Of a DNA stretch of 35,373 nucleotides, positions 5,308 to 35,373 are shown piece after piece. Below the pieces are notes generated by a model. It did not search any database. It saw nothing but the letters and a program-made list of their open reading frames with translations, and was not told the DNA's origin. The translations under genes were made by a program, and so were the position numbers. Origin of the DNA: Alphaproteobacteria bacterium (GTDB lineage Bacteria > Pseudomonadota > Alphaproteobacteria > CAAGCB01 > CAG-977); assembly GCA_017480385.1 (NCBI GenBank), contig JAFVAT010000016.1, positions 1 through 35,373 of the forward strand, given 5' to 3'. Numbering within the stretch: position 1 is the first letter of the stretch; every line of letters begins with the position of its first letter.

Positions 5308-6483
5308 CTAACGCCCGAAAACAGACCTTTGCGCGATCATTTCAAAAGTGCTTTCCAAAAAGCCGGCGTAAACGCTGCGATCATGACGGCTTGTTCCGCC
5401 GGAAGAAATTTCAATTTCTCCTGAAAAATAAACTTTCCCTTTAGGGGCAGGCAAAAACAACTTGCGCGGTTTGAAATTGGGCTGTGTTAATGTCTGCATG
5501 TCAATAAAACGATGAATTTCGGTATGGAACGGATGTGTCTGAATTAATACCAAATTGGAAAAGCTGTTCGTTCCACCGTAATCAAACGGCACGCGAATAT
5601 GAATATTAAAGTTTTCCGGCGCTTTTCCTTTTTTGACCAGCTTGATCGCTTCTTCACTCATGCCGGCAGCCAACAGTTCATTTACATGATGATAGCCGAC
5701 ATACTTTAAAAAATCGCGGCGGGTACGCTTAAACGCTTTGCGCAGTTCTGCCAGCCAGTTCGGATCCAAGGGAACATAATCCACTTCAATTAAATCCATG
5801 TTGATCAGGCCGGTCTGTTGAAACTGCCATTCCCATAGGGCCTTGTCTTCCTGAGAAGGAACCGATGCTTGCTGTGCCTGAGGCGCATAGGACGATTGCG
5901 GCGCATAAGGCTGGGCTGGTTGTTGATACGCAGGCGTATAAGGTTGCGGTGCCTGAGGAGCGTAAGGTTGCGGCGCATAAGGCTGGGCCGGTTGTTGATA
6001 CGCAGGCGTATAAGGTTGCGGCGCCTGAGGAGCGTAAGGTTGCGGCGCATAAGGCTGGGCCGGTTGTTGATACGCAGGCGTATAAGGTTGTGGTGCCTGA
6101 GGAGTATAAGGTTGCGGCGCGTAAGGCTGGGCCGGTTGTTGATACGCAGGAGTATACTGTGGTGCCTGAGGTGCATAAGGCTGAGGCGCATAGGGCTGAG
6201 GAGCCTGCGGCGGGGCTGCAGAACGCTGATAAGCGGGAGGAATTCTTTGAGGATATAGTGTTGAGGCCGCAACGGAAGAATCCTGCCCCTCTAACGTATC
6301 CGAATATGCCGATGCAGGGGCTGTTGGCGGCAGAGTTCTGAAGGAGCGGGCATCTTTGTAAATGGGTACAGGCCGAATATCACGGCGAACCGGCGTTACG
6401 CCCTGATTTTGAGCATCTTCAGCTGCCTCCCCTCTTGAACGAGCGGGCGGCGGCGGCATTTTAGATCCTGACCAATCCCACAT
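5308..6483 (-). CDS. Pro/Tyr/Gln-repeat protein with C-terminal HNH-like nuclease domain; candidate T4SS effector
   Basis: This 391-residue protein starts MWDWSGSKMPPPPARSRGEA and has an AAGGAAGG ribosome site. Residues about 1-90 are disordered and residues about 95-205 are Pro-Tyr-Ala-Gln repeats of about 24 residues. A folded domain follows from about 215. It contains FNIHIRVPFDYGGTNSFSNL followed by VLIQTHPFHTEIH, placing H295, N310, H320 and H324 in colicin-HNH spacing. Compared with the colicin E9 core HHDKP...GG, H295 matches the metal ligand but the second histidine (general base) is Ile296. It lies 33 bases downstream of the VirD4-like gene and just upstream of the SUKH gene, which suggests a secreted toxin with immunity. 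A catalytically inactive structural role is the alternative. Confidence 0.55.
   Translation of the reverse strand: MWDWSGSKMPPPPARSRGEAAEDAQNQGVTPVRRDIRPVPIYKDARSFRTLPPTAPASAYSDTLEGQDSSVAASTLYPQRIPPAYQRSAAPPQAPQPYAPQPYAPQAPQYTPAYQQPAQPYAPQPYTPQAPQPYTPAYQQPAQPYAPQPYAPQAPQPYTPAYQQPAQPYAPQPYAPQAPQPYTPAYQQPAQPYAPQSSYAPQAQQASVPSQEDKALWEWQFQQTGLINMDLIEVDYVPLDPNWLAELRKAFKRTRRDFLKYVGYHHVNELLAAGMSEEAIKLVKKGKAPENFNIHIRVPFDYGGTNSFSNLVLIQTHPFHTEIHRFIDMQTLTQPNFKPRKLFLPAPKGKVYFSGEIEISSGGTSRHDRSVYAGFLESTFEMIAQRSVFGR
5890..6200. repeat. 72-bp tandem repeats encoding a Pro/Tyr/Gln linker
   Basis: About four copies of a 72-bp unit encode TPAYQQPAQPYAPQPYAPQA-type 24-residue repeats. Copies are nearly identical at the DNA level, with small length variants at the ends, which indicates recent expansion. 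Open frames on the opposite strand here are by-products of the repeat. Confidence 0.85.
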
Positions 6484-16111: not shown

Positions 16112-18313
16112 ATGGTAAAAGCATACATCTCATTTTTAAAACGATTTAAGATCACACGAATTGTGTGTATGCTTTTGCTCGTGTTTTCTGTCGCGGCTTT
16201 GACCGGGTGCCATAATGAAGATGTGGAAATAGATGGTGATGGTTCTGAAGCTGCAGCGGCGGAACAGTCCTTAAAGGGGTGCTGGACATGTTCTATGTTC
16301 CAGACAGCTTTTGAGGCGGCCAATAATATGACTCGGACGATTGTTCCCACTGTAGCCAGAAGTGCTGTGTCTTTGGTGGCTGTCGGATATGGATTGTGGT
16401 TGGCAATTTTTATTTTAAAGCAGATCAGTTCTATGCAGGAACCTGATGCAGGGGAGTTTTGGAAAGCTCTGGCTGTGCAATCATTTTGGGCGGCGATGGG
16501 GGCGGCTTTGCTGCGGGATTTGGCCGGCGGTGGATTAGGATCTGCTTTAACTTCTTTTGCGGAACCGGTTTTTACAGGGTTTGTTGATGCCGGGTTAACG
16601 GTTGTATCGTCTTCCGGTACGAATATTCCTTGCGGACCGACGGGAAATGCTGAAACCAGTATGCTTTGTTTGGTTCGGGCACTGCAGGAAAAATTGAATT
16701 TTGGCACAGGAATTTCTTTGTTGGCGATAATGTCCCCTACCGGTTTTATTGCGATTTTTGTTGCATTGATCGTTTTTATCGTTTCAACGATTATGATGGT
16801 TTGGTTCCCGATTTTACTTTTGGACTGCGTTTTCAGATATGGAATGGCTGTCAGTATGCTGCCTTTGGCGGTTACGGCATACGTTTTTAAACCGACACGG
16901 AATTTTACCGGAAAAGTTGCTACAGCGTTTATGGAAATAGGCTTTGCCGTAATGGGAATGTGTGCTTTCTCTGCATGCTCTGTTCAAATTATGGGGGCAT
17001 ACATTGATCGTTTCCTTCCATTCGTTCAAAATCCTCTGTTCTTTTTAACGAATCTGGAAGCTTTAGAACAGGTTTTATGCGGTCCGGGCATTACGGGACT
17101 GTTGTTCCTCTCCTTTTTCTTGATTTTATTTGCTGAGGTTATTTTTGATTTCATGAACGCCCTTTCGGGAGGAGTTGGAGGAATAGGCGGTGGAGTCCGA
17201 GGAGCAGTAGCCGGCCTTAAGGCCACAAAGAACGGTGCTAAGAAAATTGCGAATTTTGGCATTAATAGAGTCCAACGCATGAAAGACCGTCGCGCTGCTA
17301 GAGATATGGCCAAACATCAGGCGGCATATAATGCTGATGTCGCAAAGCATAATGGCGGTGGTAATACGAATAGCGGTACTCTACAGAATGCCAGTGGCAA
17401 TGGTTCCGGCAACAGCAATAACAGCAATGCTTCCGGCGGCAATTCCGGCAACAGCAATAACAGCAATGCTTCCGGCGGTAATTCCGGAAACAACACCAAT
17501 AACAGCAATAATTCCGGCAACAGCAATAACAGCAATGCTTCCGGCGGCAATTCCGGCAACAGCAATAACAGCAATGCTTCCGGCGGCAATTCCGGCAACA
17601 GCAATAACAGCAATAATTCCGGCGGTAATTCCGGCAACAGCAATAACAGCAATAATTCCGGCGGTAATTCCGGCAACAGCAATAACAGTAATAGTTCCGA
17701 CGGTAATTCCGGTGGTGCATCCAACTCTGCCGAAGCGGCGGCAGGGCGCTTACAGGATCGTGGTTATTTAAATCAGGACGCTAATGGTTCCGGTGATAAT
17801 TCCGGCAACAGCAATAACAGTAACAATTCCGGCGGCAACAATGGTGGCAATAACTCTTCCGGGGCTGACTCGAACAACGGAAATGATTCATCAAATAATG
17901 CTGGAAGCAACAACAGTAATGGAAACAGTAATCCTCCCAGTTATCATGAATTAAGCGATGAAGGCAAGAAGTATATGCGTGCGGCAGAACGCTTGCAGGA
18001 TCGTGGTTACTTGGCTCAGGGCGCTGATGGCAAAATGCATGCAACTCAGGCTTATGATCAGTTGATGAGACGCCCGACAGGACCGTTTAAGGGCATTAAA
18101 CGGTTGGCCATGGGATTGGAAAACTTGAAACAAGATTACTCTGAATCCGCGATGGAGCAAAGCGCTGCCCGCCATAGACATGGAATTGATGATGGAGGTA
18201 ATCCCGAAAATGTTTTGAGTTCACGTGATGCTGCTTACGACGCAGACAATCCCAATAAGAATGTTTTGAAGGAAGGGGATTTTAATCCTGATGTCGTTTT
18301 GCCGGAGAAGTAA
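16112..18313 (+). CDS. TrbL/VirB6-like T4SS lipoprotein with Asn/Ser/Gly repeat tail
   Basis: This 733-residue protein has a lipoprotein signal ending in a clear lipobox, VAALTGC, with C33 as the lipidation site. A C57-W-T-C60 motif (GCWTCSMFQTAFEAANNMTR) is followed by a polytopic TrbL/VirB6 core to about residue 350: AVSLVAVGYGLWLAIFILKQ and LLDCVFRYGMAVSMLPLAVT. The linker after about 400 is NSGNSNNSNASGG-type repeats (about 430-610). The segment RLQDRGYL occurs twice, near 548 and 630, suggesting a duplicated short module. The C-terminus is soluble. A lipidated VirB6-like protein is unusual and would be tethered at the periplasmic face or outer membrane. The CWxC pair is shared with the 18547 paralogue. 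Confidence 0.72.
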   Translation: MVKAYISFLKRFKITRIVCMLLLVFSVAALTGCHNEDVEIDGDGSEAAAAEQSLKGCWTCSMFQTAFEAANNMTRTIVPTVARSAVSLVAVGYGLWLAIFILKQISSMQEPDAGEFWKALAVQSFWAAMGAALLRDLAGGGLGSALTSFAEPVFTGFVDAGLTVVSSSGTNIPCGPTGNAETSMLCLVRALQEKLNFGTGISLLAIMSPTGFIAIFVALIVFIVSTIMMVWFPILLLDCVFRYGMAVSMLPLAVTAYVFKPTRNFTGKVATAFMEIGFAVMGMCAFSACSVQIMGAYIDRFLPFVQNPLFFLTNLEALEQVLCGPGITGLLFLSFFLILFAEVIFDFMNALSGGVGGIGGGVRGAVAGLKATKNGAKKIANFGINRVQRMKDRRAARDMAKHQAAYNADVAKHNGGGNTNSGTLQNASGNGSGNSNNSNASGGNSGNSNNSNASGGNSGNNTNNSNNSGNSNNSNASGGNSGNSNNSNASGGNSGNSNNSNNSGGNSGNSNNSNNSGGNSGNSNNSNSSDGNSGGASNSAEAAAGRLQDRGYLNQDANGSGDNSGNSNNSNNSGGNNGGNNSSGADSNNGNDSSNNAGSNNSNGNSNPPSYHELSDEGKKYMRAAERLQDRGYLAQGADGKMHATQAYDQLMRRPTGPFKGIKRLAMGLENLKQDYSESAMEQSAARHRHGIDDGGNPENVLSSRDAAYDADNPNKNVLKEGDFNPDVVLPEK
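17398..17850. repeat. 39-bp tandem repeats encoding NSGNSNNSNASGG units
   Basis: About eight to ten copies of a 39-bp unit (AATTCCGGCAACAGCAATAA...) encode 13-residue Asn/Ser/Gly repeats within the second VirB6-like gene; some units are shortened in whole codons. The near-identity of copies indicates slippage or recombination. A Cys/Tyr-rich frame on the opposite strand is a by-product. Confidence 0.85.
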
Positions 18314-18331: not shown

Positions 18332-18550
18332 ATGTCGAGGCTGCAGCAATATCTTCTGTTCGGTGTCATCGTTTTTTTGGTCCAATTTACATCACTCGGA
18401 CATTTGTTGCAGTCGGCTTCCTTTTTAAACGTTATGTTGGGAATAATCGGGTGTTTATTGGTGATCGCAGTATTGATAACTGTACGGACAACAAAAAAAA
18501 GAAAAAGAGGATATAAGGATCCTGTAAATAAAAGAGGAGCTGACGCATGA
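18332..18550 (+). CDS. Small two-span membrane protein between VirB6-like genes
   Basis: This 72-residue protein starts MSRLQQYLLFGVIVFLVQFT with GGAGG about 11 bases before the ATG. There are two hydrophobic segments (about 6-22 and 33-52, MLGIIGCLLVIAVLITVRT) and a very basic C-terminus (KKRKRGYKDPVNKRGADA). The size and two-span topology recall small T4SS subunits such as VirB3 or VirB2-like pilins, but there is no signal peptide and no sequence match I can claim. The stop overlaps the start of the next VirB6-like gene (ATGA at 18547-18550), so translation is coupled. Confidence 0.65.
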   Translation: MSRLQQYLLFGVIVFLVQFTSLGHLLQSASFLNVMLGIIGCLLVIAVLITVRTTKKRKRGYKDPVNKRGADA

Positions 18551-20109
18551 AGAAGCTATTTTCAAAACAACTATATATACGACTGTTGCTTGTTGTCGGC
18601 CTTTTCTTTGTTTCCTCTTCATCCGTTTTTGCTTCAGCTCAGCAAGACGCAATAGATAAATATTGTGATACATGGGATGTTAATATTGAGGATTATTCGG
18701 GGCAGGAACATTGTTGGTCCTGTGAAATATTCGTTTTGTTGTTTGATTCGGCGAATATGGTTGCGGGCTTGACGAACAGTGCTTTAGGTGATGGTGCTAA
18801 AGGTATTGTTGCGGTAGGGGGAGGATTATGGTTTGCATTTTATACCTTGATGTTCTTCAGTAATGTCGGCGGTCTTTCGGATCCAATGGAATATTTAACG
18901 AAGATCGGTTCTATTATGCTTCGCATTGGCATTGCCGGCGTATTTTTATCCGGCGGGGCTTCTATGGCCTTTGATTATATTATCAGCCCTGTTTTAACCA
19001 GTGGAGCAAAATTGGCAAATATAGCTTTAAATGCCAGCGGTCACCTGCCTGTTACATTGCCTAATGATGTGGCAAGTCCGGCAACGGATATGTACAATAA
19101 AATGAAAGAGTGGAAAGAAAAGGACGCGGATTCTATCGCGGCCAAATTTGCGGCTGCGGCAACGGCGCCGATTTTTGGAAACGCTCCCTCCGCGGCAATT
19201 TCCGGACCTATGGGGGACGGGGTCAGAAGCGCATTGAAACAAATGATTGCCGCAATGGCTTCCGGCATGGCTCAAGCACAGGCAATTGCTCAGGGATTGC
19301 GGTGTGGCGCGGCTTTTTATTGGCACGTGGATCTGTATTTTATTGAATGGTTTTTTCCTAATCCGTTAATGGCTTTCGTTGGAATGTGGCTGGGGTGTGT
19401 GTTTTGGGGTATCTCCGTAATGTTCTGTTTCGCAATGCTGGACGTTATTTTCCGTATCGGATTATTGGTCAGTATGCTGCCGATTTTCATTGCGGCATGG
19501 GTGTTCCCGATAACGTCTCAATTCGCTCAATCGGCATGGAAAATGTTTTTAAACACTGTTATGGTGTTTTTTGTGACGGGACTGACGGCATCATTCATTG
19601 TTGTTTTGGTGGAAAATGCGTGGGATATTAATCCCGGCGAAACGTCATCTTTTATGGCAGAGATGAAGGCGAGTCATTATACTGATGCGTGGGAACAGTT
19701 ATTTGAGCAGGGTTTTGTAGCGGGACTGGGAACACTATTGTTGGTAAGTGCTGTCGCATGGTGGGGGTGGCTTATGGCTCCTAAATCAGATGAAACAGCC
19801 AAAAAATTTGTTGGCGGGTCGTTTTCTTCCAGTGTTGCGATAAAAGCGATTAAGAAGTTGATTAATTTTATTATAGACGCTGTTATGTTTGTTTTAACGA
19901 TTGTTACCATGGGAATGGGCGCCTGTATGTATTTCTTCAAGGTTGCCAGAACAATGGCGGATGCCTTGGATAAAGTTCAAAAGCTTAGGGAAATAGAGCA
20001 AAAGATTAAAGAAACGCGTAAAAAGTTGCAAAAGATGCGGAAAATACAGGATAAAATGAAAAAAGTGCAAAAGGGAGTACATGATGCTACTGATAAGATT
20101 GGCGGGTAA
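18547..20109 (+). CDS. TrbL/VirB6-like T4SS membrane protein
   Basis: This 520-residue protein has a Sec signal peptide (hydrophobic 11-28, cut after ASA31). A C56-W-S-C59 motif (HCWSCEIFVLLFDSANMVAG) precedes GIVAVGGGLWFAFYTLMFFS and DPMEYLTKIGSIMLRIGIAG. The later polytopic part has FCFAMLDVIFRIGLLVSMLP and FIAAWVFPITSQFAQSAWKM. The C-terminus (about 475-520) is a Lys-rich coiled coil (LDKVQKLREIEQKIKETRKK). This is the most compact and probably the archetypal member of the trio; the others add long tails. A terminator follows at 20134-20164, closing the plus-strand VirB6 operon. The CWxC cysteines could form a periplasmic disulfide or metal site. Confidence 0.75.
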   Translation: MKKLFSKQLYIRLLLVVGLFFVSSSSVFASAQQDAIDKYCDTWDVNIEDYSGQEHCWSCEIFVLLFDSANMVAGLTNSALGDGAKGIVAVGGGLWFAFYTLMFFSNVGGLSDPMEYLTKIGSIMLRIGIAGVFLSGGASMAFDYIISPVLTSGAKLANIALNASGHLPVTLPNDVASPATDMYNKMKEWKEKDADSIAAKFAAAATAPIFGNAPSAAISGPMGDGVRSALKQMIAAMASGMAQAQAIAQGLRCGAAFYWHVDLYFIEWFFPNPLMAFVGMWLGCVFWGISVMFCFAMLDVIFRIGLLVSMLPIFIAAWVFPITSQFAQSAWKMFLNTVMVFFVTGLTASFIVVLVENAWDINPGETSSFMAEMKASHYTDAWEQLFEQGFVAGLGTLLLVSAVAWWGWLMAPKSDETAKKFVGGSFSSSVAIKAIKKLINFIIDAVMFVLTIVTMGMGACMYFFKVARTMADALDKVQKLREIEQKIKETRKKLQKMRKIQDKMKKVQKGVHDATDKIGG

Positions 20110-20275: not shown

Positions 20276-21271
20276 ATGGAAGAGATTATCTTTCCGAATC
20301 AGATTCGTATGTATCGTCGCGTGCGCGGTCGCTCTATGCAGGAATTGGCTGATTTTTTAGGGGTCAGTCTTTCTGCTGTCAGTAAAATCGAAAAGGGCTA
20401 CAGGCGCATAGATCAGGAACAGTTGGTTCGTATTGCTGAATTTTTGGATTGTCCTTTGCAGGAAATTTTTGTGAACGAAGCCAGCTCTCAGCCCGATGTT
20501 GTTCAGGCTTGGCGTCGGGAACAGGAACGCCGTAACCGTGTGAATGAGCGCTGTGGTTTAAAAATGCTGGGGGCAGGGCTGCGTTATATTCGCGGTCAGA
20601 AAAATCTGACTTTGGCAGATGTGGCCGACGGGTCCGATTTGACCCTTTCTGTGTATCATCGGATTGAAATGGGACAGCGCGAGGTTTCCGAAGATGAAAT
20701 TTCCAGAATAGCCCGTGCTTTGGGATATACAAATGATGAGCTGCAGAAGCAGATTTATGATTTGGATAAGGCCGGCGCGCTGGAAGAATTTATTCAGAGA
20801 AACGATGCGCGTTATCGTACGGTTGCCGGTGTCAAAACGGGGTATCCGGAATTGCCAGTGTCCAAAGCTGCCGGATTGAAGCAAGAGCGGCAGGACGTTG
20901 TTTTGCAGGTCTATGGTCAGGCGGGTGAGAATGGTTCTGTTATTATTGACCGTCAGACGCCGTTAGGAACGGTTAATTGTTCTGCCGGAGCGGTAAATCC
21001 GATGTCGTCTTATGCTGTATCGCTTTGTACGCGTCGTTTGGGAAATTTATTGCCGGCACGCTCCATTCTTATAGTTGATCCGACAAAAATGGTTGGATTG
21101 GGAGATATTGCCGTTATGTATATGAATGATACAGAAGCCCGTTTAATCAGCGTCCGTGAAGACATTGACGGCAAGCTGTTCGGTGTTTTGTGGAATCCGG
21201 AAGAAAAAATCGAAATTTCCGAAGATAAGGCGTCGGCCCTGCATCGTGTCGTTCAAATTCAACTGCCGTAA
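20276..21271 (+). CDS. Double helix-turn-helix regulator with S24-like C-terminal domain
   Basis: This 331-residue protein has two XRE-type HTH domains: residues about 8-62 (GRSMQELADFLGVSLSAVSK, then IEKGYRRIDQEQLVRIAEFL) and about 100-155 (KNLTLADVADGSDLTLSVYH, then RIEMGQREVSEDEISRIARA). The C-terminal part (about 200-330) has ARSILIVDPTKMVGLGDIAV and LFGVLWNPEEKIEIS, resembling the S24/LexA sensor fold, but no Ser-Met dyad is visible, so no self-cleavage is expected. It sits between the VirB6 operon and the 1510-residue protein, so it probably regulates the T4SS locus. The ATG at 20276 follows AAAGGA. Two tandem HTH units in one chain are uncommon and suggest recognition of long or asymmetric operators. 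Confidence 0.75.
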   Translation: MEEIIFPNQIRMYRRVRGRSMQELADFLGVSLSAVSKIEKGYRRIDQEQLVRIAEFLDCPLQEIFVNEASSQPDVVQAWRREQERRNRVNERCGLKMLGAGLRYIRGQKNLTLADVADGSDLTLSVYHRIEMGQREVSEDEISRIARALGYTNDELQKQIYDLDKAGALEEFIQRNDARYRTVAGVKTGYPELPVSKAAGLKQERQDVVLQVYGQAGENGSVIIDRQTPLGTVNCSAGAVNPMSSYAVSLCTRRLGNLLPARSILIVDPTKMVGLGDIAVMYMNDTEARLISVREDIDGKLFGVLWNPEEKIEISEDKASALHRVVQIQLP

Positions 21272-21394: not shown

Positions 21395-24300
21395 ATGAGC
21401 CCGCCAAAAAAGGACACTAAAAAGTGGAAACCGAAATTTCCCGGTGCAGCCGCCGACGGGGAAGAGGATCCGTATGTTACAGCGCAGCGCTTTGTTAATG
21501 TTTATCGTCAATTGCATGTTTTGCGCGAGGATTTAGTTTCCCGATATAATGAAATGCTGCTGGATATTGATGCGGACGCGCGTTCGACTTTAGTGGATAT
21601 TCCGGGCGGCAGAGACGTACGGGATTATCTGACGTATTTGGAACAGCAGAAATACGGTGACGATTATGTTTCGGAAGAAGACGATGACGAGTTTGTTTCT
21701 CGTGAAGAAAAGGCAAAAGCGAAAGCAATTGCCGATGCTTTGTCTTCTGCTCAGGAAAAAATGAATCAAAACCAAATGGCGGTTATGCAGCAGGCTCAGG
21801 AAGAAGCGCGGCGTAATATGGAAATGCTGGCAAAAACTTTGTCCGAGGCCAAACAGGATCCTTCCCGAAAAGCGGAAGCGGTTCAGCTGTCCCAAGCCTT
21901 GCAGTCGGCACAGCAGGAATATTCCACTTATTCGCATCAAATAGGTGATGAGACCGCCGGAGAAATAGAAAGCGTTCAATCGAAATTAAGAGCGCAGTAT
22001 GCAGCTCAGGCTATGCAGTCGCAGCAGCAGCTGATGCCAATGCCGATGAATTACGGTATACAAAGCGGCTTGGAAAATCTGTCGCAGGCGGGATCGCAGG
22101 GGTTGGATGCTTTAGTGAATGCCTTGACGGAGGCGCAGGTAAAATCGGCCGAGCTGCAGGCAAAAGCGCAATCAGAAACAATGGCGAAGATTTTTTCTCA
22201 AAGTCAGGAAATGACAGCGCGCGCTATGGCCGAAGCCTTTTCCAAATCGCAGCAGAATGCGGCTGAGGTTCAAGGAAATTTAATTGCAAAGGCGATTGCA
22301 GATTCTCAAAGAAACGCTAATGAAACTTTAGCGGCTTTATTTTCCTCCATTCAAAAAGGGGGGACGCTGCCGCAGGCGCAAACGCCGCAGATTGTCATTG
22401 AAAATAATAATTCGGCGGCTTCTGTTGCTCAAAGTGCTTCCTATGCCGAACAAATCAAGATGATGGTTCAGGCGCAGGTTGAAGCGCAAAAAGAAATTCT
22501 GGAAATGCAGAAACAAGCCATGGCGTTTAATGTTGGCAATGGCGGCGGCAGCGGCGGTGGAGGCGGCGGCGGAATGTCCGCTGCGGAACAGGCAAAGATG
22601 ATTGCCGATGTCGTTGCGCAAACACAAAGCGCTGTTTTGACGGAAACAATGGGTCAAATGATGCATCGGCAGGAAGAATCCCAACGTTTCCAGGCAACAT
22701 TAATGGCCGAGGCTTTTTCTAAACAAACGCAGGAAATAGCGTTGGCCTTATCCAATGCTCAAAAAGCGGTTCGAAATGATACGTTGGCGACGCAGGCTCA
22801 GGCTGTTGCTCAGGCCATGATCAGGGCTCAGTCGGCCACACAGTCGGAAACGATTACGGCGCAGGCCAAAGCTATTGCAACGGCAATGTCGGAGTCTCAA
22901 AATGCGCTGCAGGCCGAGGCATTGGCGACACAGGCGCGTGTTGTGGCCGAGGCTGTTGCAGAGTCTCAATCTAGTGTTCAGCGCGATGTTTTGGCAGAGC
23001 AGGCGCGTGTTGTGGCCGAGGCTATGTCAGCTTCTCAAGCAAGTGTTCAAGCGGAAGCATTGGCGACACAAGCACGTGTCGTTGCGGCGGCGGTCGCCGA
23101 GTCTCAGGGCGCAGTGCAGAAAGAAGTTTTGGCAGAGCAGGCGCGCGTTATTGCGGAAACGCAGCAGTCAATTCAGCGGGACGCTTTAGCGGAACAAGCG
23201 CGCGTCATAGCGGAAACACAGACGTCGATCCAGCGGGACGCTTTAGCAGAGCAGGCGCGCGTCATAGCGGAAACACAGACGTCGATCCAGCGCGACGCTT
23301 TGGCCGAACAGGCTCGTGTTATTGCAGAGACGCAGCAGTCAATCCAGCGGGACGCTTTGGCAGAGCAAGCGCGTGTTGTCGCGGAAGCCATGTCAGAGTC
23401 TCAGGCAAGTATGCAGACAGACGCTTTGGCCGAACAGGCGCGTGTTGTGGCTGAGGCTATGGCACAGCAGCAGAATGCTTCTTTGTCGGAAACGGTGGAA
23501 TTGATCAGCCAAAAGCAAATGGATCAAACCTCGGCTTTGGCTTCAGCTTTGGCCAAGCAGCAAGCCAAAACACAGGAAGTGATTCACACCTGGTCGCAGG
23601 ACGGCATGCCTTCGGGCGGCATTCAGCCCGTCCAGCCGGCGCATGATTATTACGATACGCCATATACTTCCGGTTATGAGGAAGAAAGCGTTGAAACTGT
23701 TCAGCAGCAGCTTGAACCGGAAGAAGAACAGTCGAAAAAGAAGACGCGTGAGCTGCCAAAAATGGATTTGTCCGATTGGAATGCCAATCTTGACGAAGCG
23801 ATCTCTTTGTCTCAGCAGGCGGCAGCTGAAGCCGGGTACGATTTAGATGATAATTGGGGATACGGTTATGCCGATGCTTCCAGTGAAGCAATTGATTATT
23901 CCAATCTTGATGAAACGGAAGAGTATAATTACCAAGATGCGGAAGGTTATGAAGGCGATCAGGCGTATTACGATTATCCTCAGGAGGATCAGGGCCTTTA
24001 CGGATACGTTGCTGCAGGTAATTACGGGGCATATTATTATACAGATGAAGACGGCAATCCATATTATCTGGATACAAACGGGAATCCGTATTATGTCGAT
24101 GAAAATGGCCAGGCTTACTATGTTGATGAAAACGGTCAGGCCGTTTATTTTGACCCGAATGCGATCAGCGAAGATCAGACTCAGGCGGCAGCTTCGTATT
24201 ATACAGACGAGAACGGGAACCCATATTATTTAGATGCAAATGGGAATCCGTATTATGTCGATGAAAACGGCCAAGCTTACTACGTAGATGAAAACGGTCA

Positions 24301-25927
24301 GGCGGTTTACTTTGACCCGAATGCGATCAGCGAAGATCAGACTCAGACAGCGGCCCCATATTATACGGATGAAAACGGAAACCCATATTATTTAGATGCG
24401 AATGGAACGCCGTATTACTTGGACGAGAACGGAAATCCGTATTATGTCGATGAGAATGGTCAGGCTTACTACGTAGATGAAAACGGTCAGGCCGTTTACT
24501 TTGACTCCAATGCCGCTTTTGAAGAAAACGCTCCGGAAACGACAGCCGCGGCAGAGGAAACTCCGACAGATGAGCCGCAGGAACCTGTTGCTGAGGCAGC
24601 GGAGACAGAGCCGGAAGAACCGGCATATTATACGGACGAAAACGGGACACCATATTACTTAGACGCGAACGGAACGCCGTATTATTTGGACGGGAACGGA
24701 AATCCATATTATGTCGATGAGAATGGTCAGGCTTACTACGTAGATGAAAACGGTCAGGCTGTTTACTTTGACTCCAATGCCGCTTTTGAAGAAAACGCTC
24801 CGGAAACGGCAGCCGCGGCAGAGGAGGTTCCGACTGATGAGCCGCAGGAACCTGTTGCTGAAGCGGCGGAGACAGAGCAGGAAGAACCGGCATATTATAC
24901 AGATGAAAACGGGACTCCATATTACTTAGACGAAAACGGGAATCCGTATTATGTCGATGAAAACGGACAGGCCTACTACGTAGATGAAAACGGACAGGCC
25001 GTTTACTTTGACTCAAATTCTGCTTTTGAAGAAAACACTCCGGAAACGGTAACCGCGGCAGAGGAGGTTCTGCCTGATGAGACGCCGGAACCTGTTGCTG
25101 AGGCAGCGGAGACAGAGCAGGAAGAACCGGCATATTATACAGATGAAAACGGGACTCCATATTACTTAGACGAAAACGGGAATCCGTATTATGTCGATGC
25201 AGAAGGAAAAACGTATTATTCGGACGGGTTAGGCAATGCTTATTATGTTAGTGAAGACGGAGAGCCTTATTATATAACTCCGGAAGGTGAACAGGTCTTT
25301 TATACAAGACAGACCGAAGAAAATGCTGAACTTCCAATAAAAGAGGAGCCTCCTCTGGAAGCTGAGCCCGAACTGCCTGCAGAAGAGGAGGAGCCGCCTC
25401 TGGAAACTGAGACTGAACTGCCTGCAGAAGAGGAGGAGCCGCCTCTGGAAGCTGAGACTGAACTGCCTGCAGAAGAGGAGGAGCCGCCTCTGGAAACTGA
25501 GACTGAACTGCCTACGGAAGAGGAGGAGCCTCCTCTGGAAGCTGAGCCCGAACTGCCTGCAGAAGAGGAGGAGCCGCCTCTGGAAACTGAGACTGAACTG
25601 CCTGCAGAAGAGGAGGAGCCGCCTCTGGAAGCTGAGCCCGAACTTCTTGCGGAAGAGGAGGAGCAGGAATCAATAGCGCCGCTGATACAAGCGCAGGATA
25701 GTTCTGTTTTAAAGCAGGATAGTTCAGATATTCGTTCTTTGTTGCGTTTCGAAGGTTCCGCAGCGGAAAAACCGTACAAGGAAATTTTGATTTCAACTGT
25801 TCCGTTTGTTTTTGGTCCGGCGGTTCATTTCCGCCCGAATATTGCTGAAAAAGAACCGTCGGCGCCATTGGATAATGTGGTGGTTTCATTAATTAAAGAA
25901 AATGAAGATCCTTATTTCAAAGGATAA
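21395..25927 (+). CDS. Giant repeat protein (1510 aa): coiled-coil, Tyr-nonapeptide and Glu/Pro repeats
   Basis: There is no signal peptide or membrane segment, so the protein is cytoplasmic or exported without Sec. Residues 1-120 are a unique N-terminal domain (PYVTAQRFVNVYRQLHVLRE). About 120-720 is Ala/Gln-rich coiled coil, including a Gly-rich hinge near 385 and DALAEQARVIAETQQSIQR repeats (about 580-690). About 876-1308 is roughly 30-35 nonapeptides of the form NPYYVDENG / QAYYVDENG, grouped in blocks separated by Glu/Ala/Pro spacers. About 1315-1428 is EEEPPLETETELPAE repeats. A short C-terminal domain (LLRFEGSAAEKPYKEILIST) ends it. It starts at ATG 21395 after GTGGAG. It could be a T4SS substrate or scaffold; no function is known. 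Cell-wall-binding repeats share 'YY.D.NG' but have Trp. Confidence 0.7.
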   Translation: MSPPKKDTKKWKPKFPGAAADGEEDPYVTAQRFVNVYRQLHVLREDLVSRYNEMLLDIDADARSTLVDIPGGRDVRDYLTYLEQQKYGDDYVSEEDDDEFVSREEKAKAKAIADALSSAQEKMNQNQMAVMQQAQEEARRNMEMLAKTLSEAKQDPSRKAEAVQLSQALQSAQQEYSTYSHQIGDETAGEIESVQSKLRAQYAAQAMQSQQQLMPMPMNYGIQSGLENLSQAGSQGLDALVNALTEAQVKSAELQAKAQSETMAKIFSQSQEMTARAMAEAFSKSQQNAAEVQGNLIAKAIADSQRNANETLAALFSSIQKGGTLPQAQTPQIVIENNNSAASVAQSASYAEQIKMMVQAQVEAQKEILEMQKQAMAFNVGNGGGSGGGGGGGMSAAEQAKMIADVVAQTQSAVLTETMGQMMHRQEESQRFQATLMAEAFSKQTQEIALALSNAQKAVRNDTLATQAQAVAQAMIRAQSATQSETITAQAKAIATAMSESQNALQAEALATQARVVAEAVAESQSSVQRDVLAEQARVVAEAMSASQASVQAEALATQARVVAAAVAESQGAVQKEVLAEQARVIAETQQSIQRDALAEQARVIAETQTSIQRDALAEQARVIAETQTSIQRDALAEQARVIAETQQSIQRDALAEQARVVAEAMSESQASMQTDALAEQARVVAEAMAQQQNASLSETVELISQKQMDQTSALASALAKQQAKTQEVIHTWSQDGMPSGGIQPVQPAHDYYDTPYTSGYEEESVETVQQQLEPEEEQSKKKTRELPKMDLSDWNANLDEAISLSQQAAAEAGYDLDDNWGYGYADASSEAIDYSNLDETEEYNYQDAEGYEGDQAYYDYPQEDQGLYGYVAAGNYGAYYYTDEDGNPYYLDTNGNPYYVDENGQAYYVDENGQAVYFDPNAISEDQTQAAASYYTDENGNPYYLDANGNPYYVDENGQAYYVDENGQAVYFDPNAISEDQTQTAAPYYTDENGNPYYLDANGTPYYLDENGNPYYVDENGQAYYVDENGQAVYFDSNAAFEENAPETTAAAEETPTDEPQEPVAEAAETEPEEPAYYTDENGTPYYLDANGTPYYLDGNGNPYYVDENGQAYYVDENGQAVYFDSNAAFEENAPETAAAAEEVPTDEPQEPVAEAAETEQEEPAYYTDENGTPYYLDENGNPYYVDENGQAYYVDENGQAVYFDSNSAFEENTPETVTAAEEVLPDETPEPVAEAAETEQEEPAYYTDENGTPYYLDENGNPYYVDAEGKTYYSDGLGNAYYVSEDGEPYYITPEGEQVFYTRQTEENAELPIKEEPPLEAEPELPAEEEEPPLETETELPAEEEEPPLEAETELPAEEEEPPLETETELPTEEEEPPLEAEPELPAEEEEPPLETETELPAEEEEPPLEAEPELLAEEEEQESIAPLIQAQDSSVLKQDSSDIRSLLRFEGSAAEKPYKEILISTVPFVFGPAVHFRPNIAEKEPSAPLDNVVVSLIKENEDPYFKG
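23115..23395. repeat. 57-bp tandem repeats (19-residue coiled-coil units)
   Basis: Near-identical 57-bp copies encode DALAEQARVIAETQQSIQR. Longer 69-bp relatives (23 residues, with VVAEAMSESQ) flank them on both sides from about 22890. Unit length in whole codons keeps the coiled-coil frame. Confidence 0.8.
24022..25320. repeat. 27-bp tandem repeats (Tyr-Asp-Asn-Gly nonapeptides) in higher-order blocks
   Basis: Each 27-bp unit encodes xxYY[VL]DENG. Five to seven units form a block, and six blocks occur. Later blocks are separated by a recurring spacer containing FEENAPET and PVAEAAETEQEEPAYY, so the block plus spacer (roughly 250-300 bp) is itself repeated. Copies are very similar, which is consistent with recent amplification. 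Confidence 0.85.
25339..25670. repeat. 45-bp tandem repeats (EEEPPLETETELPAE)
   Basis: About seven copies of a 45-bp unit alternate between a GAGACTGAACTG and a GAGCCCGAACTG version, encoding acidic 15-residue repeats. The alternation suggests expansion by a 90-bp double unit. Confidence 0.85.
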
Positions 25928-25992: not shown

Positions 25993-26976
25993 ATGGCTGA
26001 AAAAGAAATACCGGAGGCTCTGTCATCACTGTTTGAAGCTGTTCTGGCGTATCAGGATACGCAGGAAGGCTTGGGGCGTGTTCGTTCAGTGGCGCAGTCC
26101 ATGTTCGGAGAAAGTTGGCGTGCGCAGTTGCCGGGTATTATAGCGGATTGTCCGGACGATCTTCAGCAACAAGTAAAAACAAATATAGATCGGGCTTTGA
26201 CATATGAAAAGGCGGCCTCCATATGGACAGAGGTTTCCCGCATGCTTGATCCCAGACGGCAGATTGATGCTGCTCAGGTCAAGGCTCAGATTCCTGAAAT
26301 GCAACGGTGGCTGTCCATTTTTGGAAAGGCCGGTCAGGACTTGCTGGCTAAACTGCAGGATAAAATCGCACAAACCGAAGCGAATCCGTCGATGGGCAGT
26401 TCCGTCACAGCGAACACATACGGGTTGACGGTTGAACAATTATGGAATTTTGATCATTTTATGCGCTTGAAAACGTATTACGATCAAACGATATCGCGTA
26501 CCAGCGCCAGATGCGTTCATTTGGGCGGATTGGAACTGAGCCAGTATCCCTATTTCGGGTATATCCTTGATTTATTAGATGAGATTCTGACCTTTGGCAT
26601 GGAAATCATTACGCCGCCGTATGCGCAGATTGTTCGGGAACGCTACAAAGGTGGGGAAGCCGCATTGAAAAAGGTTTTAATGGAATATAAAGCGGAATTT
26701 GACAGCAATGCGCCTCCGGAAATGTTGGAAGATGAAGAAACGATGGACGATATTAAAAATCGTTTGGGATCTTTGGCAGATAAGAACGAAGTGGAAGAAG
26801 ATATCGGACCGGCGCCCGATGGCTTTGAGGCACCTGAAGAGACCGCTGTTCATCAGCAGGCTCAGCCCGCCGGCGGTGCTGTCAAGCAGCCAATGGTGAA
26901 AGCACCGCAAAAAATGCCGGTGAAAGCGCCGGTACAGGCTAAGATGCCGGTGAAACGTCCGGTTCCGGCAGGCTAA
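25993..26976 (+). CDS. Unknown helical protein with Lys/Pro/Val C-terminus, T4SS locus
   Basis: This 327-residue protein starts MAEKEIPEALSSLFEAVLAY with AAAAGGAA close to the ATG. The helical N-terminal domain (1-130) is followed by YGLTVEQLWNFDHFMRLKTY and PYFGYILDLLDEILTFGMEI (about 145-210), then an acidic region (EMLEDEETMDDIKNRL). The basic tail is KMPVKAPVQAKMPVKRPVPA. No signal peptide, membrane segment or known family is recognised. The VKRPV tail echoes the N-terminus of the 12328-13344 protein. The gene lies 20 bases upstream of the secretin-like lipoprotein, so the two are probably co-transcribed. A scaffold or chaperone for the secretin-like protein is conceivable but not shown by the sequence. 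Confidence 0.6.
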   Translation: MAEKEIPEALSSLFEAVLAYQDTQEGLGRVRSVAQSMFGESWRAQLPGIIADCPDDLQQQVKTNIDRALTYEKAASIWTEVSRMLDPRRQIDAAQVKAQIPEMQRWLSIFGKAGQDLLAKLQDKIAQTEANPSMGSSVTANTYGLTVEQLWNFDHFMRLKTYYDQTISRTSARCVHLGGLELSQYPYFGYILDLLDEILTFGMEIITPPYAQIVRERYKGGEAALKKVLMEYKAEFDSNAPPEMLEDEETMDDIKNRLGSLADKNEVEEDIGPAPDGFEAPEETAVHQQAQPAGGAVKQPMVKAPQKMPVKAPVQAKMPVKRPVPAG

Positions 26977-26996: not shown

Positions 26997-28232
26997 ATGT
27001 TTTTTCAATACATCAAAAAATATGTTTTATCCGCAGTGATACTGGGCAGCGGGTGTCTTTTGATTTCCTGTGGCAGTGATATCCGTGCAGGGCGGCCAAT
27101 GGTTCAAATGGTGCGTCCGACATCTTTGCCGACAGAACCGAAAACGACTCGATCTGCGGAAATGGTCAGTCTGGAATCGCCCATGCGTTGTACCGTGCAG
27201 GAAACGCAGCAGAATATTATGACTGTTATTCCCTTTAAACAGGAAGCTTTTAAATTGGAGCGTGCGCAGAAAAGCGATCCTTTGCCGCGTTATGAGGTCA
27301 CGGGATTTTCTTTTGACGGTCAATCGGCGGAACGTGTTTTTTATAAACTTTTAAGTGAAGCCAAAATTAAAGTTGTCGGCGAGGGCGGTCCTTTTCCCGA
27401 ATTGGCGGCGGAAAATATTACGGGCGAACTGTCCGAAGTTATGGATATGATCGCTAATGCCGCTGATGTTTATTATCGTTACAACGATCAGCAAAAGGTT
27501 TTGATTGTTAGCCGCGAGGTCAGTTGGAATTTGTACGTTCCCGATAAACGAGAGGTCATGATTGCGGTTTTGGATTCTTTGCGCGGATCCGGTATGCATG
27601 ATTTGATCGTGAACTGGGAAGAAAGCGTTATTTCTTTTATCGGGGATAAAAAAATCGAGGATAAAGTCAAAAAGCTGATCGAGCTGTTTGATACGGAACC
27701 GAAACTGATCGTCTTTAATGCACAGGTTTTGCGTGTTAAGCCGTACGGCGCGGCAAAAGAAATCGTTTGGCAGGAATTGGTTGATATTTTTGGCGCGGAT
27801 CGGATTAAATTCATGCTGAAAGGCGTTATGGGACGGGCTTTGGTTACGGACTATGACATTAATCCGAAAAGCCTGCGGAATTTCTTAAACGCTCGCGGTT
27901 CCGTTACGCAGGTGTCTGAAGGCATGTTCATTGCGGCGAATAAGTGGCGGGCACGTTTTGATGTCGGGCGATGCGGCTATATGTCCATGCCGGAAGCTCA
28001 ACTATCAATTATGGCTCAAACGGAGTTGTATGGCGAACGGCGCATGAACACGGATATTACATTAGATTCCGATCAGGGGGAAGTTACGGCCTTTTCTGCG
28101 AAGAGCCGCTTGGGTGACAATATTGTTTTGATCGGGATTCCGTCTGCTTCTTTCAGTGATTCTCTGAACGGGTATGAGACGGTTGTTATTTTAACGCCCA
28201 GTGTGATCAAGTTGGTTAAAGAATTCAATTAA
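26997..28232 (+). CDS. Secretin-like lipoprotein (PilN/BfpB-type N-domains)
   Basis: This 411-residue protein has a lipoprotein signal with lipobox LISC, C25 lipidated. After a linker, about residues 98-165 look like a secretin STN/N0 domain (GFSFDGQSAERVFYKLLSEA, ending YYRYNDQQKVLIVSR). About 170-250 resemble N1-type domains (KKIEDKVKKLIELFDTEPKL, IVFNAQVLRVKP). The C-terminus (LGDNIVLIGIPSASFSDSLN, then GYETVVILTPSVIKLVK) resembles the end of secretin barrels. The length is short for a full secretin (about 500-650), so the pore region may be reduced. Outer-membrane secretin-like lipoproteins occur in type IVb pili and IncI thin pili. Here it would be the outer-membrane partner of the T4SS (inference). 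Confidence 0.65.
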   Translation: MFFQYIKKYVLSAVILGSGCLLISCGSDIRAGRPMVQMVRPTSLPTEPKTTRSAEMVSLESPMRCTVQETQQNIMTVIPFKQEAFKLERAQKSDPLPRYEVTGFSFDGQSAERVFYKLLSEAKIKVVGEGGPFPELAAENITGELSEVMDMIANAADVYYRYNDQQKVLIVSREVSWNLYVPDKREVMIAVLDSLRGSGMHDLIVNWEESVISFIGDKKIEDKVKKLIELFDTEPKLIVFNAQVLRVKPYGAAKEIVWQELVDIFGADRIKFMLKGVMGRALVTDYDINPKSLRNFLNARGSVTQVSEGMFIAANKWRARFDVGRCGYMSMPEAQLSIMAQTELYGERRMNTDITLDSDQGEVTAFSAKSRLGDNIVLIGIPSASFSDSLNGYETVVILTPSVIKLVKEFN

Positions 28233-28243
28233 AGGAGGCATAG

Positions 28244-29077
28244 ATGTCAGATCAGCAGCAGCGTCCGCCTTATCCGCCGGCTCCGCCTTATCCGCAGCAG
28301 GGAGGTGTTCCTCAGCCGCCGCGTCCGACCGGCGTTCCGCCGTATCCGCCCGGTATTAAAATGCCTGCCGGCGTTAAAATGCCGCCGCGTCCAATGGGAT
28401 ATCCCATGCCTGCCGGTGTTAAAATGCCGCCGCGTCCGGTCGGTGTTCCGCCCATGGGTATGCCGCCGCCCGGTCCTGTCGCTGTTCCCCAGTCTCCTCT
28501 TTCCGAAACACAGCTTCCGGTGCCTGCAGATACGGAGATTGATGAAGAATGGGGCGAAATTGACAGCGTTTCGGAACCCGATGTTGACGAAAATGGCTTC
28601 ATAGATGATTTAGAGGACGATTCTCCTGAACCCGAATCGGAAGAAGAAGATAGTGAACCGGCGGGAACAGGCCTTTATGAGGATAATATGGCAGCTGATT
28701 TCGGACTGCCTCCGGTTTTTGTCAAAACAAAACTTTTATTGCCGTTATTCCTTTTCTTTATTGTTTTCGGTGCTGCGCTGGGATACATGGGCAGCATGCT
28801 ACAGCAAAAAGGAGGCGGCGAAATGCCCGGTGTTGTCCGTAATATGGAAATTCCCAAAGGGCGCCCGCGCTGTGGGATTGCACAGAAAGGACAGGGGTGC
28901 GTTTTATACATTATGAATTCGCAGCGCCGCGAAGTAGAAGGGCGTGACTTTTTTACAATGGCGGCGGATATTTTAAATATACCGAAGTTCCAGATTGAAA
29001 CGGCAAATATTCGTTATGCAACGATGCGGATTCCTCCGGGATATATTGCGCTGCTGAATATTCCTCCGGTGCAGTAG
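28244..29077 (+). CDS. Pro-rich bitopic inner-membrane protein, T4SS locus
   Basis: This 277-residue protein follows an AGGAGG site. Residues 1-90 are cytoplasmic and proline-rich (PPYPPGIKMPAGVKMPPRP type) and about 95-145 are acidic. A single membrane segment lies near 163-184 (LLLPLFLFFIVFGAALGYMG). The periplasmic domain (about 185-277) has two Cys (CGIAQKGQGC), DFFTMAADILNIPKFQIETA and RYATMRIPPGYIALLNIPPV. The topology (long Pro-rich cytoplasmic part, one TM, small periplasmic domain) recalls VirB10/DotG- or DotF-like bridging proteins, but I see no family-defining motif. It follows the secretin-like gene by 11 bases and ends the block, with a hairpin at 29125-29152. Confidence 0.6.
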   Translation: MSDQQQRPPYPPAPPYPQQGGVPQPPRPTGVPPYPPGIKMPAGVKMPPRPMGYPMPAGVKMPPRPVGVPPMGMPPPGPVAVPQSPLSETQLPVPADTEIDEEWGEIDSVSEPDVDENGFIDDLEDDSPEPESEEEDSEPAGTGLYEDNMAADFGLPPVFVKTKLLLPLFLFFIVFGAALGYMGSMLQQKGGGEMPGVVRNMEIPKGRPRCGIAQKGQGCVLYIMNSQRREVEGRDFFTMAADILNIPKFQIETANIRYATMRIPPGYIALLNIPPVQ

Positions 29078-29528: not shown

Positions 29529-29558
29529 CAAAATTTTTTGATAAGGAAAGGTATAGTT

Positions 29559-31241
29559 ATGGCTGAAAAAAGAACAGAGTTCGAGTCCCTCGGCGGTAAT
29601 AACTTGGACGGTATCGGCGGAAACGCCAAGAAAATCACATATACTGCCGAAGACGGAAGCAAAAAGTCGATTCAAATCGACTGCGGTATGAAGTTTTCTG
29701 ATAAAGCTCTTACAGGCGTGGATAACTATATCGCTCCTTTAGAATGTGATGATCTGCTGATCACTCATGCTCATGCTGACCACATTGCCGGCATTATCCA
29801 CCATATCCAGATGAATCCGGAACGCCCGCTGAATATTTATGCAGATAAGTTCACGCATCAGTTCATGTTGGCCGAAATGACCAAGCAGGGACTTCCGTTG
29901 GACAATATGCCGAAATTCCATGATGTCAAAGACGGCGAAAAATTCATGGTAAACGGTTTTGAGGTCGAACCTGTTCCTGTAACGCACTCCGCGCCGGGCG
30001 CCATTGCCTTTGTCGTTGAATCTCCGGACGGTACCCGTTTAATGGATATGGGCGATTTTAAAACAACACCGGTTGAATTGGGCAAAGGTTGGGAAGATGC
30101 CCGTATGGCAGAAGTCTTCGCCAAAGGAATTGACGTTTGTTTCTGTGATTCAACGTCTACGACTTCTAAGGAAGTCACGCCGCCTTATGAGGCTGTTACA
30201 AAAGGCTTCAAGAAGATTCTGTATGACAATCCCGATGCGCAGATGATGGTTGGCACGATTGCCCGCTCTGCTCAGCAGATGATGGCTGACGTGATCGCTG
30301 TTGCCGAATATGCCAAGGAAACCGGCACAAAGCCCCGTACGTTTATTTTGGACGGCGCCTCTTTGGTTCAGGTCAACAACGCGCTGAACAAATCCGATAT
30401 GAGCATGGAAAAAGCATGCTATGAACGCACGGGCGTCCGTGTGAAAATTATTGACGCGAAGTCTCCGGAAGCGCGTACAATTCCGCCTCAGGAACGTATT
30501 TATATGGTAACGGGGACCCAGGGTGAAGAATTGGCTTCTATGGCGCGCGTTTCCCGTGGTGAAAACAGAAATATCCGTCCGTCCAGAACCTGCCCGAATT
30601 TGTGCGTCAACCAGCAGGCGGTCATTCCGTCAGGCGACAATCAGGCCATTGTTGATGAAATGATGGAAGCTTTGCGCCGTCAAGGTTGGAAGACGATGAT
30701 TCCGGAACGCGGTGCTCCGTTCGTAGAGGGCGAAACCTACTATGTTTCCGGTCATGGCCGTGCCGGTGATATGGAAAAGGTTGCTGATATTGCCGCGCAT
30801 AACCAGCCGGCGGGCCGTGCCTGCACCTTTATCGGCATTCATGGCGATGAGGTACAGACAAAGGCTACGGAAGAAATCTTTAAGGACAAAGGGCAGAAAG
30901 TGGAACATATCACGAATGCTCAGAAAGTTGTCGTTTCCAAAGGTGAAGTTCAGGTTTCTCCGACGATTGGCAAAGCCAGCCGTATCGCTGTTATTGATGA
31001 CAACGATAACTTTATGGATCCGGATTTCCGCTATATCAAGCAGGCTTTCAACCCCGTTTCCAAAAAATGGGAAGATGTCAAACAGATTGATTACGAAAAG
31101 ATTTTGGTATCCAAAAATGATCGTAAGAAAGACGGTAAGGGCGGCAAAGGCGGTAAAGGCCATGGCGGCAAGAAAAAAGGCAATAAGGGACATCGCGATA
31201 TGTCTCCGATGCTGATGCAGAAAATGCAGAGAACTCACTAA
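29559..31241 (+). CDS. rnj: RNase J family metallo-beta-lactamase/beta-CASP ribonuclease
   Basis: This 560-residue protein starts at ATG 29559 (AAGGAAAG upstream), not at the upstream TTG. The metal site H70-A-H72-A-D74-H75 lies in LLITHAHADHIAGIIHH. VPVTHSAPGAIAFVVESPDG supplies the next metal-binding histidine and MDMGDFKTTP the aspartate. The beta-CASP part has CDSTSTTSKEVTPPYEAV and MMVGTIARSAQQMMADVIAV, then IYMVTGTQGEELASMARVSR. YYVSGHGRAGDMEKVADIAA is the late His motif. The protein performs 5'-3' exo/endonucleolytic RNA maturation in the cytoplasm. The last 40 residues are a Lys/Gly/His-rich tail (KGGKGGKGHGGKKKGNKGHR), unusual and perhaps RNA-binding. A strong terminator follows. Confidence 0.85.
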   Translation: MAEKRTEFESLGGNNLDGIGGNAKKITYTAEDGSKKSIQIDCGMKFSDKALTGVDNYIAPLECDDLLITHAHADHIAGIIHHIQMNPERPLNIYADKFTHQFMLAEMTKQGLPLDNMPKFHDVKDGEKFMVNGFEVEPVPVTHSAPGAIAFVVESPDGTRLMDMGDFKTTPVELGKGWEDARMAEVFAKGIDVCFCDSTSTTSKEVTPPYEAVTKGFKKILYDNPDAQMMVGTIARSAQQMMADVIAVAEYAKETGTKPRTFILDGASLVQVNNALNKSDMSMEKACYERTGVRVKIIDAKSPEARTIPPQERIYMVTGTQGEELASMARVSRGENRNIRPSRTCPNLCVNQQAVIPSGDNQAIVDEMMEALRRQGWKTMIPERGAPFVEGETYYVSGHGRAGDMEKVADIAAHNQPAGRACTFIGIHGDEVQTKATEEIFKDKGQKVEHITNAQKVVVSKGEVQVSPTIGKASRIAVIDDNDNFMDPDFRYIKQAFNPVSKKWEDVKQIDYEKILVSKNDRKKDGKGGKGGKGHGGKKKGNKGHRDMSPMLMQKMQRTH

Positions 31242-33091: not shown

Positions 33092-33160
33092 ATCCATTTA
33101 AATTTGGACAGTTAAACTGTTCCCAAAACAAGAGGAACGGCCATGAACAACAAAGATTAG
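33092..33160 (+). mobile_element. Possible truncated IS3-type left end with five-codon orfA stump
   Basis: TTTAAATTTGGACAGTTAAACTGT includes the palindrome ACAGTT-A-AACTGT (33108-33120). It is followed by GTTCCC...GGAAC, AGAGG and ATG AAC AAC AAA GAT TAG (33143-33160). Spacing and sequence resemble the left end and orfA start of IS3-family elements, broken at the fifth codon where the 85-bp repeats begin. No transposase body or right end is present. This is pattern memory only. Confidence 0.3.
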
Positions 33161-33382
33161 GTCCTGCCAGTTGGCACGATATAAAAAAACTGGCGCCCGT
33201 ACGGCTAGTACCGCCACGGGTAAAACGTTCTCCGGACAAAGATTAGGTCCTGTCAGTTGGCACGATATAAAAAACTGGCGCCCGTACGGCTAGTACCGCC
33301 ACGGGCAAAACGTTCTCCGGACAAAGATTAGGTCCTGCCAGTTGGCACGATATAAAAAACTGGCGCCCGTGCGGCTAGTACC
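33150..33382. repeat. Three tandem 85-86-bp structured repeats
   Basis: Units start at 33150, 33236 and 33321 (ACAAAGATTAGGTCCTGCCA...). The first two are complete, and the third stops after GGCTAGTACC near 33382. The copies differ by only a few bases. Each contains GCCAGTT...AACTGGC and, in complete units, CCCGT...ACGGG inverted repeats, so each could fold as two hairpins in RNA or ssDNA. The unit carries no coding frame. The following 33383-33465 has no feature that I recognise. Confidence 0.85.
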
Positions 33383-35337: not shown

Positions 35338-35373
35338 AATAAAAATCTCCTTTTCTAGGTTCTGTACAGACCC

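Follow-up and report, generated by a model that had tools for sequence, protein, structure and literature searches.

The nine-residue tyrosine unit

The window, meaning the whole stretch of 35,373 nucleotides analyzed here, encodes a 1510-residue protein in which a short tyrosine-rich unit is repeated in tandem. The questions are what structure such a unit builds and what role the protein carrying it plays.

The unit is xxYY[VLT]DENG, with the consensus xPYYVDENG and one glycine per unit. When strict units are defined by the pattern xx[YF][YF]x[DST]xxG, 28 are found in six blocks of 4, 4, 5, 5, 4, and 6, starting at residues 879, 933, 987, 1076, 1165, and 1245. Each block is closed by a degenerate unit (QAVYFDPNA, QAVYFDSNA, or EQVFYTRQT), which brings the total to 34 units over nucleotides 24029–25315, as assembled in a draft genome of 40 contigs where the repeat number may be mistaken. 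This count agrees with the first-pass annotation, which had put roughly 30–35 copies in six blocks. Contigs of several relatives break in the same gene.

Among the strict units Y3, Y4, and G9 are invariant (28/28), while D6 is kept in 26 and N8 in 23. Identity at lag 9 is 0.427, as compared with 0.095 on average and never more than 0.155 in 10,000 shuffles, which contain at most three strict units, and autocorrelation of the array peaks at 9 and its multiples. The array (residues 879–1306) contains 63 tyrosines, no tryptophan, and 23% Asp/Glu, with Lys and Arg nearly absent. Position 5 follows the order T-L-(L)-V-V-F in blocks 1–5. Glu/Ala/Pro spacers had been described between all blocks; they are present at 3/4, 4/5, and 5/6, but 1/2 and 2/3 have only 9-residue spacers. 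A reverse-strand open reading frame (24327–25160) is a by-product of the repeat without support as a gene.

Between units, pS is 0.64 and pN is 0.23, with pN/pS of 0.36. Because silent sites are strongly diverged, the units are old and constrained at the protein level. Duplicates of block plus spacer have 240–267 bp periods and are 90% alike; whole blocks with their spacers have been duplicated recently. For block 1, pN/pS is about 0.07–0.2 in three of four close ortholog pairs and 0.45 in the fourth, which points to purifying selection in the three pairs and less clearly in the fourth.

The array could also be a low-complexity expansion without specific function, as its copy number spreads widely among orthologs (7–30 units by regular expression, some arrays being shortened by contig ends) and the block duplications are recent. 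Against such an expansion, three genera share the unit period and the Y-Y-D-N-G pattern, and pN/pS is low both between units and between close orthologs. We regard a functionless array as improbable.

Translation and hydropathy confirm the earlier statement that the 1510-residue protein lacks a signal peptide. Hydropathy reveals no transmembrane segment either, the best 19-residue value being −0.11 near the N-terminus. Ala/Gln-rich helical segments lie between the N-terminal core and the rod, and an acidic linker connects the rod to the six blocks (Table 1).

Table 1 Features of the 1510-residue protein and of its neighborhood in the window
Feature	Position	Strand	Basis or remark
VirD4/TraG-type coupling protein	6517–8886	−	T4SS-DNA_transf 1.4e-56
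TrbL/VirB6-like protein 1	13571–15940	+	TrbL 6.6e-10
VirB6-like protein 2	16112–18313	+	Position and similarity; without Pfam match
VirB6-like protein 3	18547–20109	+	Weak TrbL match
Double HTH (XRE-type) regulator, upstream neighbor	20276–21271	+	Conserved in outgroup locus L028
Putative scaffold protein, 1510 aa	21395–25927	+	Translation; without signal peptide or TM segment; homologs found
Conserved N-terminal core, aa 1–95	21395–21679	+	Alignment, class search, hmmsearch; common to several Alphaproteobacterial families
Ala/Gln/Glu helical rod, 19/23-residue repeats (LAEQARVIAETQQSIQRDA), aa 446–700	22730–23494	+	Helix/coiled coil inferred from sequence
YY block 1, 5 units	24029–24163	+	Unit pattern and AlphaFold2
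YY block 2, 5 units	24191–24325	+	Unit pattern and AlphaFold2
YY block 3, 6 units	24353–24514	+	Unit pattern and AlphaFold2
YY block 4, 6 units	24620–24781	+	Unit pattern and AlphaFold2
YY block 5, 5 units	24887–25021	+	Unit pattern and AlphaFold2
YY block 6, 7 units, more diverged	25127–25315	+	Unit pattern and AlphaFold2
Acidic/proline 15-aa repeats (EEPPLEAEPELPAEE x7)	25343–25664	+	Repeat analysis
C-terminal tail ...NVVVSLIKENEDPYFKG, ending DPYFKG	25856–25924	+	Conserved among orthologs; similar [DN]PY end in some outgroups
327-aa conserved partner, KMPVKRP-type C-terminus	25993–26976	+	Locus comparison
411-aa lipoprotein-like partner	26997–28232	+	G032 homolog: weak, sub-threshold Secretin_N match
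277-aa single-TM protein, Pro-rich N-terminal tail	28244–29077	+	KMPPRP motifs encoded at 28376–28392 and 28421–28437

Predicted fold of the blocks

In an AlphaFold2 model of block 6, made with seven block sequences, PYYL or PYYV strands recur every nine residues at a mean pLDDT of 70.6 (77–81 in the middle), and the block is predicted as a meander rather than a disordered chain. In a model of residues 860–1312, six antiparallel β-meanders appear with pLDDT of about 57–85, lowest in block 6 (~60), and the spacers stay at ~30. Both models were obtained from shallow alignments, of 7 and 3 sequences, and carry moderate confidence. Each unit is modeled as a strand of four residues with a DENG turn.

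The blocks thus probably fold as antiparallel β-meanders. The β nature and the DxNG turns proposed at first are reproduced as strand-turn units in the models, but the proposed β-roll or β-solenoid is not, since meanders joined by low-confidence spacers suggest small sheets, each on its own along a flexible chain, rather than a continuous solenoid. By strand alternation, tyrosines would lie on both faces of each sheet.

In VIA look-ups, block 6 best matches the polo-box 3 (PB3) of PLK4 with Z of 4.5, and the TCP10 domain of CPAP with Z of 3.9. With the whole region TCP10 comes first at Z of 3.2, and OspA comes next. TCP entries are among the top look-ups of both models, weak at Z of 3–4 and TMq of 0.44 (Foldseek, VIA). 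These matches indicate similarity of arrangement, not kinship.

A T4SS locus

The first-pass annotation missed that the gene lies in a T4SS context. The order of the genes for the 1510-, 327-, 411-, and 277-residue proteins is the same wherever it was checked in families f1, f3, f22, f48, and f90, and VirB4 and VirB10 genes are present in all nine genomes tested. VirB6 and VirD4 genes are in the window; VirB4, VirB8, VirB9, VirB10, and VirB11 genes are elsewhere in the same genome. The recurrent gene order and the VirB/VirD4 genes identify the locus as a chromosomal T4SS common to related lineages, of which the 1510-residue protein would most simply be a scaffold. We consider a scaffold role in a VirB-type T4SS fairly likely. 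Such an operon in host-associated Alphaproteobacteria has apparently not been described before.

Alternatively, the protein could be a substrate of the T4SS intended for a eukaryotic partner such as a rumen ciliate, with the arrays as targets of host kinases or SH2-type domains, comparable to EPIYA effectors and TarP. The T4SS linkage, the absence of a signal peptide, and the many tyrosines with hydrophobic and acidic residues after them would suit an effector. On the other hand, the gene is inside a conserved apparatus operon and its version in outgroup family f90 encodes only 175–265 residues without any repeat, so the protein has a core function other than that of an effector. Moreover, the tyrosines are modeled in strands, not in disordered segments. 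The chance that the protein is an effector appears small.

Several other features were observed in the window and elsewhere in the genome. On another contig of the genome (L074:9267–16334, contig C28) a giant VirB10/TrbI-like protein of 2355 residues has in its middle GRVLPDGTVVDENGNVI units of ~17 residues, arrayed at length and matching Pfam Bflower_2/DUF3659; TrbI-domain frames are about 2160–2840 residues in most relatives checked and 1280 in G013. TrbL/VirB6-like protein 1 (13571–15940, +) is extended at its C-terminus by strand-turn repeats of RHS/YD-like type (DGSSVETRMNDQGQ, YDSKGQKTSEYQFDKSG), and VirB6-like protein 2 has a low-complexity SGNSNNSN repeat of 39-bp period (17397–17712, +). 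At its end, the coupling protein carries a long tail of DDDEDYDDDEDYDD repeats rich in Asp/Glu (6575–6693, −). A 391-residue protein (5308–6483, −) contains proline-tyrosine repeats (PYAPQPYAPQAPQ) and a C-terminal domain of HNH-like look without Pfam match (FDYGG...NLVLIQTHPFHTEIH). The T4SS genes adjoin a gene for a metallo-β-lactamase-fold protein with weak RNase J β-CASP similarity (29538–31241, +). Downstream of a flagellin gene (33520–35373, −), close to its 3′ end, is an 85-bp tandem repeat of 2.7 copies that are 96% alike (33150–33382).

Distribution of the array and the N-terminal core

Scaffold orthologs occur across the window's genus and family; the named close relatives are gut- or rumen-type MAGs, one from water-buffalo rumen. 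The YY repeat is present in 9 of the 12 family genomes, with several contigs ending inside repeats. When the repeat was used as a query, 4 of 289 Alphaproteobacterial genomes matched, all from the same genus, and in a draw of 398 genomes from the phylum the window's own genome alone matched. No YY array was seen outside family f1 in the sampled genomes. The repeat was not found in the plasmids, phages, and viral contigs searched, and a mobile or phage origin was rejected on that ground.

Of 385 Alphaproteobacterial genomes sampled, 19 from several families contain the N-terminal core. Outgroup scaffold homologs are without the YY array and differ in their C-termini, which are E/P-rich in G032 and contain [DE]NPYLS motifs in G013. 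In family f48 (L111, L112, and L113) the corresponding C-terminal part carries another aromatic-acidic tandem motif, GQDWEWEYEEE. The YY array is a family-specific insertion into a scaffold that is presumably not exported. A DWGF motif occurs in some of the f48 scaffolds, its counterpart in the window protein being DNWGYGY.

The arrays might cluster secretion machines by self-association, through edge-to-edge stacking of sheets or as tyrosine-driven condensate stickers, without any proline-rich ligand. The modeled meanders are expected to have free sheet edges and aromatic faces, the layout is multivalent with disordered acidic spacers, and the different aromatic-acidic repeat of the f48 outgroup in the same part of the protein is in keeping with this idea. 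However, a highly acidic array with hardly any basic residues disfavors homotypic stacking, and the TCP domain, a close fold analog, is monomeric. We regard self-association as rather unlikely.

A possible docking role and a candidate ligand

The reading that we prefer, held with somewhat less than even confidence, is that the YY arrays are multivalent docking modules on a cytoplasmic T4SS scaffold for a proline-rich tail. The 1510-residue protein would sit in the cytoplasm as a scaffold of a VirB-type T4SS encoded on the chromosome, with its N-terminal core docking to the apparatus and its long helical rod spacing or oligomerizing the scaffold. Its C-terminal half would have gained the six YY[VL]DENG arrays in one bacterial family. 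Each array, predicted as a free-standing antiparallel β-meander, acidic and hung on disordered acidic spacers, may work in the manner of OCRE domains or of the TCP/G-box of CPAP. As a partner, the proline-rich, Lys/Arg-containing tail of the 277-residue protein, presumably cytoplasmic, would be the likeliest; an example of a candidate ligand peptide is GVKMPPRPMGYPMPAG.

KMP/PRP-type motifs (GVKMPPRPMGYPMP type) number 1–3 per tail of the 277-residue protein in 8 of 8 f1 genomes, as compared with 0 of 10 outgroup homologs. Proline makes up 23–38% of the first 100 residues of the protein in f1 and 9–22% in outgroups. Genome-wide in six genomes, 12 of 13 KMPPRP-coding sites are inside the gene of this protein. 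From this co-occurrence we tentatively put forward the KMPPRPMGYPMP-type tail as the ligand of the YY meanders, which is doubtful in two respects. The contrast of 8/8 with 0/10 sets one clade against the rest, so that motif and array may have come together in a single evolutionary event, and other proline-rich proteins exist in f1. Docking as a whole is also disfavored by the outgroup scaffolds, which manage without the array. The f48 homologs of the 277-residue protein (L111–L113) have a basic tail of KKVKRPIRRI type.

Comparison with known repeats and folds

Choline/cell-wall and glucan-binding repeats (PF01473 and relatives) share the YYxDxNG strand-turn core with the YY unit, which raises the alternative of a degenerate CW_binding/YG-type module working outside the cell. 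Summed partial matches to Choline_bind_1/CW_binding_1 (PF01473) reach 25.3, above the Pfam cut-off of 20.5, and PDB profile matches include glucansucrase and choline-binding chains, those to glucansucrases covering the YYxDxNG core only. Single Choline_bind_1 matches, however, cover just part of the 19-position model at 9–15 bits. As PAS_9 and DUF1410, which are unrelated models, likewise exceed their cut-offs on the array, the Choline_bind_1 match was taken as low complexity. PF01473-type repeats form secreted solenoids of ~20-residue units with GW/aromatic elements, whereas the YY array has a strict period of 9 without Trp or signal peptide. CW_binding_1 membership was rejected since the ~19–20-residue period, the GW tryptophan, and the secreted location are all absent, and an extracellular cell-wall or glucan-binding module is very improbable. 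The top-ranked PDB sequence match, 8zxl, arises artefactually from the Glu/Pro repeat.

RTX repeats, the main subject of the nonapeptide repeat literature, share the nine-residue period and Asp and Gly in the turn, but their GGxGxDxUx motif is absent from the YY unit, and the YY blocks are predicted as meanders. Profile searches of the 1510-residue protein gave no RTX match, and an RTX-like β-roll was rejected for lack of the sequence motif. The first-pass annotation had suggested calcium or cell-wall ligand binding, which finds no support in a protein without the GGxGxD motif, Trp in the array, or a signal peptide. It had also noted that the sequence matches neither RTX nor classical cell-wall repeats, as the missing features attest. 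Its broader statement that no described family has this unit agrees with the absence of RTX, OCRE, and Tcp10_C matches. It has to be qualified by Choline_bind_1, which passes its cut-off when summed, although the features that define that family, a period of ~20 residues and an aromatic GW element, are missing here. In the parts of the literature available, no bacterial description of such a nine-residue tyrosine unit was found; the two papers met on tyrosine-rich repeats were reviews, one chlamydial and one on galectins.

The single-layer β-sheet of Borrelia OspA, which appears in the VIA look-ups, resembles the modeled meander in exposing both faces. It differs in being capped by globular domains and belonging to a surface lipoprotein without a short sequence repeat of YY type.

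Two eukaryotic domains are also comparable in arrangement. The OCRE domain consists of tyrosine-rich octamers forming six consecutive antiparallel strands and binds arginine-flanked proline-rich Sm tails through aromatic residues (PMC5127646). The OCRE of RBM5 (PF17780) and the YY array both have tandem tyrosine-rich short repeats, 4-residue antiparallel strands (modeled for YY), tyrosines on both faces (for YY, by the alternation above), and an acidic surface; the OCRE feature of tandem aromatic strand-turn units arranged as a meander is also found in the predicted YY blocks. OCRE is spaced by eight residues instead of nine and forms one small globular domain, in which an N-terminal extension packs against the sheet. 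Its profile gave no match in the 1510-residue protein at E ≤ 10.

In CPAP, the TCP domain forms a free-standing meander whose aromatic residues bind a proline-rich STIL motif (PMC3776556). The TCP10/G-box of CPAP/SAS-4 (Tcp10_C, PF07202) is a free-standing single-layer antiparallel β-meander of consecutive strands and turns, which the YY models may resemble, given the low look-up scores. It belongs to a eukaryotic centriole protein, often has PDG turns, and forms one sheet of ~20 strands instead of several of 5–7. The Tcp10_C profile likewise gave no match in the 1510-residue protein. Membership in OCRE or Tcp10_C was thus rejected for want of a sequence match, although the YY array may work like both.

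If the predicted fold is right, the kind of fold is already known, and the repeat and its setting would be what is undescribed. Speculatively, bacteria might have evolved a TCP/OCRE-like proline-recognition module independently from a nine-residue tyrosine unit, repeating it in six blocks on the T4SS scaffold, where it would co-evolve with a repeated KMPPRPMGYPMP ligand on an inner-membrane protein of that T4SS as a tunable multivalent tether. If true, this would define a scaffold family for the T4SS operon, and the idealized YY repeat would be a convenient model for free-standing β-sheets. The YY array would then stand beside CPAP TCP and RBM5 OCRE, two proline-recognition meanders of eukaryotes, as their counterpart in bacteria, and its nine-residue unit would be close to the minimum.
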